A stretch of DNA of 64,000 nt from Cellulosimicrobium cellulans. GTDB taxonomy: Bacteria > Actinomycetota > Actinomycetes > Actinomycetales > Cellulomonadaceae. The notes beneath the pieces were generated by a model that saw only the letters and a program-made list of their open reading frames with translations, was not told where the DNA came from and made no database searches. The translations under genes and the position numbers were made by a program. Location: positions 2,728,001 to 2,792,000 of the forward strand of contig NZ_JAFBCN010000001.1 in the NCBI RefSeq assembly GCF_016907755.1. Reading direction: 5' to 3'. Positions 13,106-44,157 of the stretch are shown in pieces (positions within the stretch are counted from its first letter, which is position 1; every line of letters starts with the position of its first letter).

Positions 13106-14059
13106 ATGCGCCTGCTGTTCGCCGGGACCCCGGATACCGCGGTCCCGTCCCTCGACGCCCTCCTCGACTCCCGCCACGACGTCGTCGCCGTCCTCACGCG
13201 CGCCGACGCGCCGTCGGGCCGGGGGCGGCGCCTGACCCCGAGCCCCGTCCGCGTGCGCGCGGAGGAGGCCGGGATCCCCGTGATCACCGACCGTCCCCGC
13301 GGCGAGGACTTCCTCGCGCGCCTGGCCGAGCTCGACGTCGACGCGGCGCCCGTCGTCGCGTACGGGGAGATCCTGCGCCCCGAGGTGCTCGCCGTGCCGC
13401 GCCACGGGTGGGTGAACCTGCACTTCTCCGTCCTGCCGGCCTGGCGCGGCGCCGCGCCCGTGCAGCGCGCGATCATCGCCGGCGACGAGGTCACCGGGGC
13501 CACGACGTTCCTCATCGAGCAGGGCCTGGACTCCGGCCCCACGCTCGGCACCACGACCGAGACCATCCGCGCCCGGGACACCGCCGGGGACCTCCTGGGC
13601 CGCCTCGCCGTTTCGGGCGCGGGCCTGCTCATCGCGACGCTCGACGCGCTCGAGGACGGGACGCTGCGCCCGCAGCCCCAGCCCGCCGACGGCGTCTCCC
13701 ACGCCGCGAAGCTCACGCCCGCCGACGCGGAGGTGCGCTGGGACCACCCGGCGCTCGCGGTCGACCGCCTCGTGCGCGGCTGCACCCCCGCGCCGGGCTC
13801 CTGGACCACCGTCCCCGGGCCCGACGGCGCGCCCGCGCGCCTCGGGCTCGCCCCGGTGACGCCGCGCCCCGACGTCACCGACCTCGCCCCCGGGCACGTG
13901 CGGGCCGGGAAGAAGGAGGTCCTCGTCGGCACCGCCACGCACGCCGTCCAGCTCGGGGACGTGGCTCCCGTGGGCAAGAAGCAGATGCCCGCCGCCGACT
14001 GGGCGCGCGGTGCCCGCCTTCCCGAGAACCTCGTGCTCGGCGCGGAGGTCGTCCGATGA
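13106..14059 (+). CDS. fmt: Methionyl-tRNA formyltransferase
   Basis: Formylates initiator Met-tRNA using 10-formyltetrahydrofolate. The 317-residue protein starts [16 protein letters not shown]. The catalytic region [17 protein letters not shown] supplies Asn and His, and [16 protein letters not shown] supplies the catalytic Asp. The C-terminal OB-like domain begins near residue 205 ([16 protein letters not shown]). Its transcript looks leaderless. Its stop overlaps the rsmB start as ATGA, the usual fmt-rsmB pairing. Confidence 0.96.
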
Positions 14060-15759
14060 GCGGCGGCACGCCCGTGGACCGCGACCGCGACGACGCGCCC
14101 CGCCGGCGGTCGACCGACGGATCGAACGCACGTTCGAACGACTCGGCGAGCGATCGCCGGCGCGGAGGGCGCAGCTCGAACGCGCGTTCGAACGACTCGC
14201 GAGCGACCCGCGGCAGCGACTCGAACGCCCGTTCGAACGGTGCGGACGGCGGCCGGGACCGCCGCGACGACGAGCGCCGCGACGCCCGCGGCCGCCAGCG
14301 CGGCGCCGCCCGCTCCCGCGGCGAGACGTCCCGCAGCTCGAACGCGCCGTCCCAGCGTCGCAAGGGCACCGACCCGGCCCGCGCCGTCGCGTTCGACGTC
14401 CTGCGTCAGGTCGACGGCTCCGACGCCTACGCCAACCTCGTCCTGCCGCCCCTCCTGCGCGAGCGCGGCATCCGCGGTCGCGACGCCGGGTTCGCCACCG
14501 AGCTCGCCTACGGCACCCTGCGCCTGCGCGGTCGCTACGACGCCGTCCTCGCGCTGTGCCTCGACCGGCCCCTCGACCGCCTCGACCCGCCCGTGCTCGA
14601 CGTCCTGCGCCTCGGCGCCCACCAGCTCCTCGGCATGCGCGTGCCCCAGCACGCGGCCGTGTCCGAGACGGTCGGGCTCGCGCGCGAGCGCACCGGTGCC
14701 GGGAGCGCCCAGCTCGTCAACGCCGTCCTGCGCCGCGTCGCACGCACCCCCCTCGACGACTGGCTCACCACGATCTCCGACGACGCCCCCGACGGCCTCG
14801 CGGCGCTCGCGGCGACCCAGAGCCACCCCGTCTGGATCGCCCGCGCCCTGCGCGACGCCCTCGCCGGCAACGGCCGCCCGGTCGCCGAGCTCGACGCGCT
14901 CCTCGCCGCCGACAACGACGCCCCCCGCGTCACGCTCGTCGCCCGCCCCGGCCTCGCCGACCCCGAGGAGCTGGCCGACGGCGACGACCGCGTCACTCCC
15001 ACGCGCTGGGCCCCCACCGCGCTGCGGCTCGAGGGCGGCGACCCCGCCGCGTTCGGCGCCGTCCGCGACGGCCGCGCCGGGGTCCAGGACGAGGGCAGCC
15101 AGCTCGTCGCACTCGCCCTCGCCGCCGTACCGCTGACCGGTCCCGACGCGCGCTGGCTCGACCTGTGCGCCGGCCCCGGCGGCAAGGCCGCGCTCCTCGC
15201 GGCGCTCGCGGCCGAGCGAGGCGCCCGTCTCGTCGCCAACGAGGTCCAGCCGCACCGCGCCCGCCTCGTGGAGAAGGCCCTCGCCGCCGTCCCGGCCGAC
15301 GCCGTGGAGGCCGTCCGCACGGGCGACGGGCGCGCCGTCGGGCAGGACGAGCCGGGCGCCTACGACCGCGTGCTCCTCGACGCTCCCTGCACCGGCCTCG
15401 GTGCGCTCCGCCGTCGTCCCGAGTCCCGCTGGCGGCGCACCCCGGCCGACCTCGCGACCCTCACCGGGCTCCAGCGCGAGCTCCTCGACTCGGCCCTGGA
15501 CGCCGTCCGGCCCGGGGGAGTGGTCGGCTACGTCACGTGCTCGCCCCACCTCGCCGAGACCCAGGTCGTCGTCGCCGACGTGCTGCGTCGCCGCGACGAC
15601 GTCGAGCTGCTCGACGCTCCCGCGGTCGTCCGCGACGTCGTGCACCCCGAGGCGCGCGCCACGATCGAGCTCGGCGACCGCCAGGACGTCCAGCTCTGGC
15701 CGCACGTCCACGGCACCGACGCGATGCACCTCACGCTCGTGCGCCGCAAGGACCGCTGA
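14056..15759 (+). CDS. rsmB: 16S rRNA m5C967 methyltransferase with SOS-box-encoded N-terminal extension
   Basis: The 567-residue protein matches RsmB/Fmu/Sun, which methylates C967 of 16S rRNA. A NusB-like RNA-binding domain spans about residues 105-240 ([22 protein letters not shown]). The Rossmann methyltransferase follows, with [15 protein letters not shown] for SAM binding and two catalytic Cys motifs, [12 protein letters not shown] and YVTCSPH. Residues 1-103 are an unusual Arg/Ser/Asp-rich, probably disordered extension. SNARSND recurs in it because three perfect TCGAAC-N4-GTTCGA palindromes are translated there. No ATG, GTG or TTG lies in frame between the extension and the NusB domain, so the extension is genuinely coded. 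ATG overlaps the fmt stop. Confidence 0.93.
14122..14137. promoter_or_regulatory. SOS (LexA) box-like palindrome 1 inside rsmB
   Basis: TCGAAC-GCAC-GTTCGA. It is an exact match to the 16-bp actinobacterial SOS-box consensus TCGAAC-N4-GTTCGA, 66 bases into rsmB. Confidence 0.6.
14176..14191. promoter_or_regulatory. SOS (LexA) box-like palindrome 2 inside rsmB
   Basis: TCGAAC-GCGC-GTTCGA, a second exact match, 54 bases (18 codons) after the first. Confidence 0.6.
14221..14236. promoter_or_regulatory. SOS (LexA) box-like palindrome 3 inside rsmB
   Basis: TCGAAC-GCCC-GTTCGA, a third exact match, 45 bases (15 codons) after the second. A lone TCGAAC half site follows at 14338-14343. Confidence 0.6.
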
Positions 15760-15770
15760 CGACGTCGTTC

Positions 15771-15842
15771 TTGTCGTCATATCTCGACAACGAGGCGGTG
15801 TCGGAGTAACCTGACATTGCGTCGTGTCGGAGAAACCTGACA
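15771..15842. promoter_or_regulatory. Three TGTC-N10-GACA operators upstream of hipBA
   Basis: Dyads occur at 15772-15789 (outer T/A extends the arms to 15771-15790), 15799-15816 and 15825-15842, all with TGTC-N10-GACA arms and centres 27 and 26 bases apart. The last two lie in a near-perfect 20-base direct repeat (15798-15817, 15824-15843). HipB antitoxins bind repeated dyads at their own promoter, so these are the likely autoregulatory sites. Confidence 0.65.
15784..15812 (+). promoter_or_regulatory. Promoter of hipBA
   Basis: TCGACA (15784-15789), a 17-base spacer and TAACCT (15807-15812). Both boxes fall inside the operator dyads, so bound HipB would block polymerase. Confidence 0.6.
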
Positions 15843-15882
15843 TGCCGCGGAGAGAGGGACACCCGACCGCAGGAGGACACCC

Positions 15883-44041: not shown

Positions 44042-44107
44042 GACGAAGGGGAGCGCGCGGAGGCCCTCCGTGATGCGTCGGAGCAGCTCCTTCCGCCGCG
44101 AAATGAC

Positions 44108-44121
44108 ATAATGTACATTAT
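44108..44121. promoter_or_regulatory. 14-bp AT-rich perfect palindrome, operator-like
   Basis: ATAATGTACATTAT, a perfect palindrome in a region otherwise above 70% GC. It lies 67 bases upstream of the membrane-protein start and 37 bases past the NUDIX stop. It resembles operators of MarR/PadR/GntR-type repressors, but no such regulator is adjacent. Confidence 0.5.
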
Positions 44122-44157
44122 CGGCGCCCCGCGGGTGGGGTCGCGGATCGTGCGTGT

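Follow-up and report, generated by a model that had tools for sequence, protein, structure and literature searches.

LexA is widespread in actinobacteria, and its occupancy of DNA is lifted on damage by self-cleavage. Among the known systems with which such a cluster can be compared, datA is a cluster of DnaA boxes outside a promoter, and matS occurs as many sites over a macrodomain and has a sequence of its own. LexA itself has been studied as a promoter repressor. In S. venezuelae, 208 intragenic LexA sites are reported, 176 of them near a start site, with dnaE2 the only gene carrying such a site that was differentially regulated on damage (PMC9380542). Since nearly all genes with intragenic sites are without a damage response there, a precedent exists for LexA that binds DNA and leaves local expression unchanged. 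Here we consider a cluster of three LexA-type boxes in Cellulosimicrobium cellulans, within a window of 64,000 nucleotides, this being the whole stretch of DNA that was analysed (Table 1).

The first-pass annotation had placed three exact copies of TCGAAC-N4-GTTCGA in rsmB, and a sequence match returns all of them, 66-180 nt inside the coding sequence. It had also held that the array is not chance, and indeed the window contains 17 matches at up to two mismatches, against 2.34 +/- 1.49 in 100 dinucleotide shuffles. Across the 4,788,922 bp of the genome there are nine exact boxes, three of them in the rsmB array, and not the hundreds of copies of a generic repeat. That the boxes are a spreading repeat captured as coding sequence is thus disfavoured, with similarity ending at the edges of the 16-mers and only nine exact copies in the genome. 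A further half site described at 14338 is present but not conserved, and several relatives read RSSSAPS, RSAHAPS or, in Oerskovia flava, RSTSAPS at that place. In the window genome, the inner ends of the three rsmB boxes are G and C on both strands, while the other six exact boxes, all of them singles, have A at an inner end.

Table 1. Positions of the array, its host gene and the predicted recombination site in the window
Feature	Position	Strand	Basis and remarks
fmt, upstream of rsmB	13106..14059	+	Reading frame; stop overlaps rsmB start by ATGA
rsmB, 16S rRNA methyltransferase with basic N-terminal extension; carries the array in Cellulosimicrobium	14056..15759	+	Reading frame; Pfam NusB, Methyltr_RsmB-F
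LexA/SOS box 1 (TCGAACGCACGTTCGA)	14122..14137	.	Exact match, kept in relatives; encodes SNARS
LexA/SOS box 2 (TCGAACGCGCGTTCGA)	14176..14191	.	Exact match; step from box 1, 54 nt
LexA/SOS box 3 (TCGAACGCCCGTTCGA)	14221..14236	.	Exact match; step from box 2, 45 nt
Predicted dif (Xer recombination site)	44101..44128	-	18-nt core exact; 29.9 kb from array

Compared with a LexA operator as usually understood, the array boxes agree in sequence with the consensus TCGAAC-N4-GTTCGA, and the same genome encodes a LexA with DNA-binding and S24 domains, the only lexA-family match found there (DNA-binding domain by Pfam). They do not appear to sit at the promoter of a regulated gene, as they lie inside the rsmB coding sequence, where an unmapped internal promoter may yet exist, and, in the second genus described below (g15), in a convergent gap (six of seven genomes). 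Elsewhere in the genome, polymerase genes of the dinB and imuB types (both Pfam IMS) have an exact box upstream of them, at about 0.5 kb for the dinB-type gene and about 1.1 kb for the imuB-type gene, and in either case the interval could accommodate a single ORF; a further exact box precedes a short reading frame. Near-boxes upstream of lexA (L010:2390-2473) start at 2390, 2443 and 2458, with one, two and two mismatches; their first step, 53 nt, is close to the 54 nt of the array. The presence of lexA, the boxes near the dinB- and imuB-type genes and the near-boxes upstream of lexA make it plausible, at the level of sequence, that TCGAAC-N4-GTTCGA is a working SOS box in the Cellulosimicrobium host.

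Three further boxes deserve mention in their own right. The start of a radical-SAM gene with an intein-like insert (L003:1519-3015) abuts an exact SOS box. Another exact box (L009:1501) lies between divergent genes for a methyltransferase-like protein (by eye) and a NaeI-type restriction endonuclease (Pfam) at L009:1454-1592, a possible case of SOS-regulated restriction-modification. Finally, a box within a WYL-type (pafB/C-like, by eye) gene (L007:1501-1516) is exact in some species and reads TCGAGCGGATGTTCGA in others; as it encodes an FERMFE stretch it is probably protein-driven, and a useful control.

The gene upstream of rsmB, which we take to be fmt, adjoins rsmB in most family genomes checked. 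RsmB has a NusB domain at aa 107-230 and an RsmB/F methyltransferase domain at aa 364-560, and we agree with the earlier reading that no in-frame start codon follows the boxes ahead of the NusB domain, as read from the sequence. The 103-residue extension, described at first as lacking from ordinary RsmB, is not wholly foreign, given that other genera also have a segment ahead of the RsmB core; it is mostly 35-60 residues long, reaches 126 in outliers and often includes a basic stretch. Only the part of the extension upstream of this basic stretch bears boxes. After rsmB comes a hipA homologue, with the array present or absent; a link between the array and hipBA was considered and rejected, as hipA is also found in the arrayless genomes of C. 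arenosum (G001) and C. terreum (G016). Two TGTCGGAG-AACCTGACA-type repeats lie after rsmB at window positions 15780-15850, ahead of an Xre/HipB-like gene and hipA, and TGTCAGGTTA..CCGACA-like motifs recur beside rsmB in some relatives; these repeats are possibly HipB operators.

The array is conserved across most of Cellulosimicrobium. At least two exact boxes at steps of 36-66 nt are found in 12/17 genomes, and a tolerance of one mismatch per box brings in G012, with three boxes, and C. marinum (G011), with two, so that three boxes in rsmB at this tolerance are carried by 13/17; boxes in rsmB were not found in C. arenosum and C. terreum. For tabulation we used 16 sequences, G013 being left out because it starts inside rsmB, and 14 of these carry 41 boxes (up to one mismatch). 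The steps are 54/45 nt in 12 of the 14, 54/54 in one (G012) and a single 45 in one, which is to say that the first step is 54 nt in 13/14 and a 45-nt step occurs in 13/14. By comparison, flank lengths around the array vary, at 30-78 nt and 41-65 nt over the same 14 sequences.

Within the boxes, codon usage departs strongly from that of the surrounding gene. The Arg codon is CGT in 39/41 boxes; the corresponding figures are 16/184 for the rest of the extension and 59/981 for the core. The two Ser codons are TCG in 81/82 cases, against 13/64 and 36/219, respectively. As these counts take related boxes and genomes as independent, binomial values derived from them make the result look more certain than it is. 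The residue that follows the second Ser is variable (N, S, T, I or K) and yet its codon starts with A in 41/41 boxes, versus 97/842. Among the 12 sequences with 54/45 steps, identity is 99% in the boxes and 47% in the spacers, where random expectation is 35%, compared with 92% over the first 600 nt of the core. No compensatory double change is seen in the 41 boxes; of five single changes, three break a pair and two leave G-T. The alignment of rsmB from relatives, proposed in the first-pass annotation, therefore favours a palindrome that is kept rather than a peptide, on the grounds of codon choice, the A-starting last codon and the 99% versus 47% identity. As far as sequence comparison can tell, selection on the array acts on DNA, not on the peptide. 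In a tree of fmt and rsmB (88 sequences, 83 with fmt), C. terreum is nested among array-bearing species (support 0.91), which suggests loss of the array there, and C. arenosum may represent either a loss or an early branch (tree support 0.0).

A similar array is present in a second genus, g15, where it is not associated with rsmB. All seven g15 genomes have three boxes, at steps of 44/44 nt in six and 44/45 nt in one (G168). The array begins 16-31 nt past the stop codon of an endonuclease/exonuclease/phosphatase-family gene, which faces a GMC oxidoreductase gene whose own stop lies 40-52 nt past box 3 in 6/7 genomes, so that in these six the array takes up a convergent gap of 162-188 nt. In the remaining genome, G167 (L247), the GMC oxidoreductase frame runs through the three boxes without a stop, and this copy of the array may overlap coding DNA. 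Identity is 98% in the g15 boxes and 33-38% in the spacers (random 29%), and the coding DNA beside the array, anchored at the stop codon, is 63% identical (range 33-97%). In the fmt and rsmB tree, g15 falls together with Sanguibacter, Paraoerskovia and Sediminihabitans (support 0.99) and Cellulosimicrobium joins the Isoptericola group (0.99), and the two genera are thus not sisters. Since the g15 array sits between convergent genes without rsmB, that gene is not essential to the element.

What the two arrays have in common is their position relative to dif. The dif core in the window (44104-44121, minus strand) is the only match at up to two mismatches in the window genome (G000), and the predicted 28-mer agrees with the F. 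alni dif, as quoted in PMC3025954, at 23 of 28 bases when aligned by eye. An exact or one-mismatch copy of the predicted dif is found in 24/24 genomes of both genera, five of which also have a two-mismatch match elsewhere, and at up to one mismatch dif is found in 167/221 family genomes. The array lies at +27.6 to +30.2 kb of the predicted dif in 10/10 box-bearing Cellulosimicrobium genomes that have the two on a single contig, and at -27.3 to -32.0 kb in 5/5 such g15 genomes; four box-bearing Cellulosimicrobium and two g15 genomes, with array and dif on different contigs, are left out of these ranges. As dif is oriented, the arrays thus fall on opposite sides in the two genera. Both genera, and some others, have a common gene order near dif, where what we take to be priA-HAD-fmt-rsmB lies to one side and a Sua5-type gene opposite, which means that the two places occupied by the array are non-homologous. 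The simplest history is one of independent gains (or one move). We estimate at near 1.5% the chance that a random site falls no more than 32 kb from dif, and two lineages show such a placement. Array-type boxes occur on one side of dif only (eight Cellulosimicrobium and three g15 genomes, 20-40 kb on both sides), and a whole-genome search for exact pairs finds one box cluster per matching genome. Separately, two genomes have second dif-like sites (one mismatch) in opposite orientation 5-7 kb from dif, at G121:C1:1789074 and 1794487 and at G125:C13:822478 and 829173, possibly reflecting a dif-integrated element.

We also asked how the array relates to the replichores, using the five single-scaffold genomes of both genera in which dnaA was located, one of which (G012) has a second, unplaced contig. 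The predicted dif is roughly opposite dnaA in 4/5. A prediction set beforehand, that the array marks the longer replichore, was given up, as it held in only 3/5: the arm with the array is the longer by about 89 kb in G000, by about 8 kb in G168 and by about 45 kb in G170, and the shorter in G012 (by about 60 kb) and G007. Outside G007 the arms differ little, by 8-90 kb. The array is on the replichore of the coding direction of dnaA in 4/5 genomes, the exception being G007, a pattern that was noticed after the fact and that holds in spite of a dif neighbourhood inverted from one genus to the other. In G007, dnaA and dif are 0.77 Mb apart in a single scaffold of 4.86 Mb, giving arms of 0.77 and 4.09 Mb, and such implausible arms suggest a rearrangement or an assembly fault.

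The distribution of the array is narrow. An exact two-box search over 221 family genomes matches 12/17 Cellulosimicrobium and 5/7 g15 genomes and none of the other 197, giving exact arrays in 2/25 genera; the exact pair is likewise absent from all 361 genomes outside the family among 396 sampled from the order. The genome-wide search with mismatches covered the fixed 44-nt step alone, and at up to three mismatches it matches 7/221 family genomes, all of them g15. A scan for degenerate pairs around dif (total of up to three mismatches, 36-66 nt spacing; 31 genomes with a listed dif, 1.96 Mb, with an uneven cover of 20-80 kb per genome and only 20 kb beyond the window for G000) finds pairs confined to Cellulosimicrobium and g15, and three rounds of 3-base-block shuffles of the same surroundings give none. 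At a total of four mismatches, one 66-nt pair appears in another genus (G181). Given that C. arenosum and C. terreum are without it, and that none was found in the other genera searched, the array is not essential to termination. As to a phage origin of the array, exact SOS-box pairs 36-66 nt apart are found in 30 viral contigs (L127-L156), several at 42 or 55 nt; judged by coordinates, a 44-nt step is absent from all 30.

Because the site equals the LexA consensus, LexA is the likely occupant of the array, and a similar trio across dif in a second genus suggests a terminus element rather than a switch for rsmB. As the promoter, sink, peptide and RNA readings discussed below fit poorly, what remains is a site that would work as DNA near the terminus; and as the occupant is probably LexA, which is freed on damage, we propose a releasable nucleoprotein block or anchor. 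The reading we favour, to which we give a little less than even confidence, is that the array is one cis-acting terminus element made of three LexA operators at locked spacing, rather than a site controlling rsmB. As long as the DNA is undamaged, three LexA dimers would occupy the array and form a compact nucleoprotein complex in the terminus, which would most likely block or anchor a traveller on terminus DNA, such as a replication fork, FtsK, condensin or the machinery of sister-chromosome pairing. DNA damage would lead to RecA-stimulated cleavage of LexA and empty the array, and in this way the handling of the terminus would respond to SOS. In Cellulosimicrobium the element forms part of the rapidly evolving N-terminal extension of rsmB, and in g15 it lies between convergent gene ends. 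We infer LexA occupancy, release on SOS and the role as block or anchor from the sequence and its position.

The spacing of the boxes bears on this proposal. Steps of 44, 45 and 54 nt correspond to about 4.2, 4.3 and 5.1 helical turns, and, among in-frame values, 45 comes closest to 44 and 54 to one turn more than 44, a hint of a fixed rotational relation between bound dimers in the two genera. A stronger version of the terminus element, for which our confidence is decidedly lower, would have a spacing-locked three-operator site near dif that arose at least twice, at matching distances and on opposite sides, and would give LexA a second, non-transcriptional job as an SOS-releasable block or anchor of the terminus, through which damage directly alters fork fusion, FtsK traffic or sister separation. 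For a fork barrier, three sites are few, and palindromic boxes lend no polarity of the Tus-Ter kind.

The leading alternative is local transcription control, in which LexA sitting within rsmB would obstruct RNA polymerase, or else a promoter that is internal or antisense, with rsmB and downstream genes lowered until SOS. The location of the boxes, 66-180 nt into the coding sequence, would suit such a role, and intragenic LexA binding is common in S. venezuelae, though the same study has only dnaE2 responding to damage among genes with an intragenic site (PMC9380542). The g15 array, between the 3' ends of convergent genes (6/7) and with spacers near random (33-38% versus 29%), is hard to reconcile with it, as is the hipA homologue that follows rsmB with or without the array. 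We therefore consider this reading unlikely. For the same reason, the LexA roadblock tying rRNA methylation to damage, offered by the first-pass annotation, is not supported as the main point: the g15 array does without rsmB, and the common feature is nearness to dif.

Could the array instead be a sink that sets the level of free LexA, and thereby the SOS threshold, as datA does for DnaA? It makes up three of the nine exact boxes of the genome and has a non-promoter placement in g15, but a sink requires neither a fixed spacing over randomised spacers nor nearness to dif, and three extra sites would be few; we regard titration as improbable. We are similarly doubtful that another protein with LexA-like specificity reads the sites, for example a terminus-organising protein peculiar to both genera. 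Such a lineage-specific partner would account for exact arrays in only 2/25 genera; against this, the 12 conserved bases are those of the LexA box, which LexA is expected to bind anyway, and the window genome has a single lexA-family match. Two last readings are very hard to sustain: a functional SNARSN peptide with an incidental palindrome, for which there is a protein coded in frame through the boxes, is contradicted by the codon choice, the A-starting last codon and the same DNA motif outside both genes in g15, and mRNA hairpins, for which each palindrome offers, as judged from its sequence, a potential stem of 6 bp and a loop of 4 nt, by a fixed stem sequence with a compensatory double change in 0/41 boxes.

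Returning to the terminus element, a conserved non-promoter array at a kept distance from dif would make it possible to test whether LexA acts on chromosome structure or replication termination. Synonymous recoding could remove the Cellulosimicrobium boxes with the protein unchanged, which makes for a clean experiment. In titles and the starts of abstracts, and among the matches listed, we found no description of a comparable LexA array near dif, and the only match joining LexA, the dif site and the replication terminus was a dif-prediction paper.

Set beside known systems, the array is closest in sequence to actinobacterial LexA operators, including multi-box promoters such as that of lexA itself, with which it shares TCGAAC-N4-GTTCGA and a host LexA; it differs in having three boxes at locked spacing, no apparent promoter in g15 and a tie to the neighbourhood of dif. 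Like the Tus-Ter and RTP fork traps, it has putative protein-binding sites where termination takes place, and these lie 27-32 kb from the predicted dif. However, its boxes are palindromic and non-polar, with a near-symmetric 44/44 arrangement in g15, and form one cluster on one side of the terminus, and its presumed occupant, LexA, would be releasable by SOS. Like matS, bound by MatP in the terminus domain, the array is terminus-restricted, but it is one cluster of three sites in a genome with nine exact boxes, where MatP-matS has many sites across a macrodomain, and its sequence differs from matS. Finally, it resembles datA and DARS, the clusters of DnaA boxes, in that boxes for a regulator are grouped away from promoters, in a distinctive part of the chromosome, with LexA presumed in the place of DnaA and a location near the terminus.
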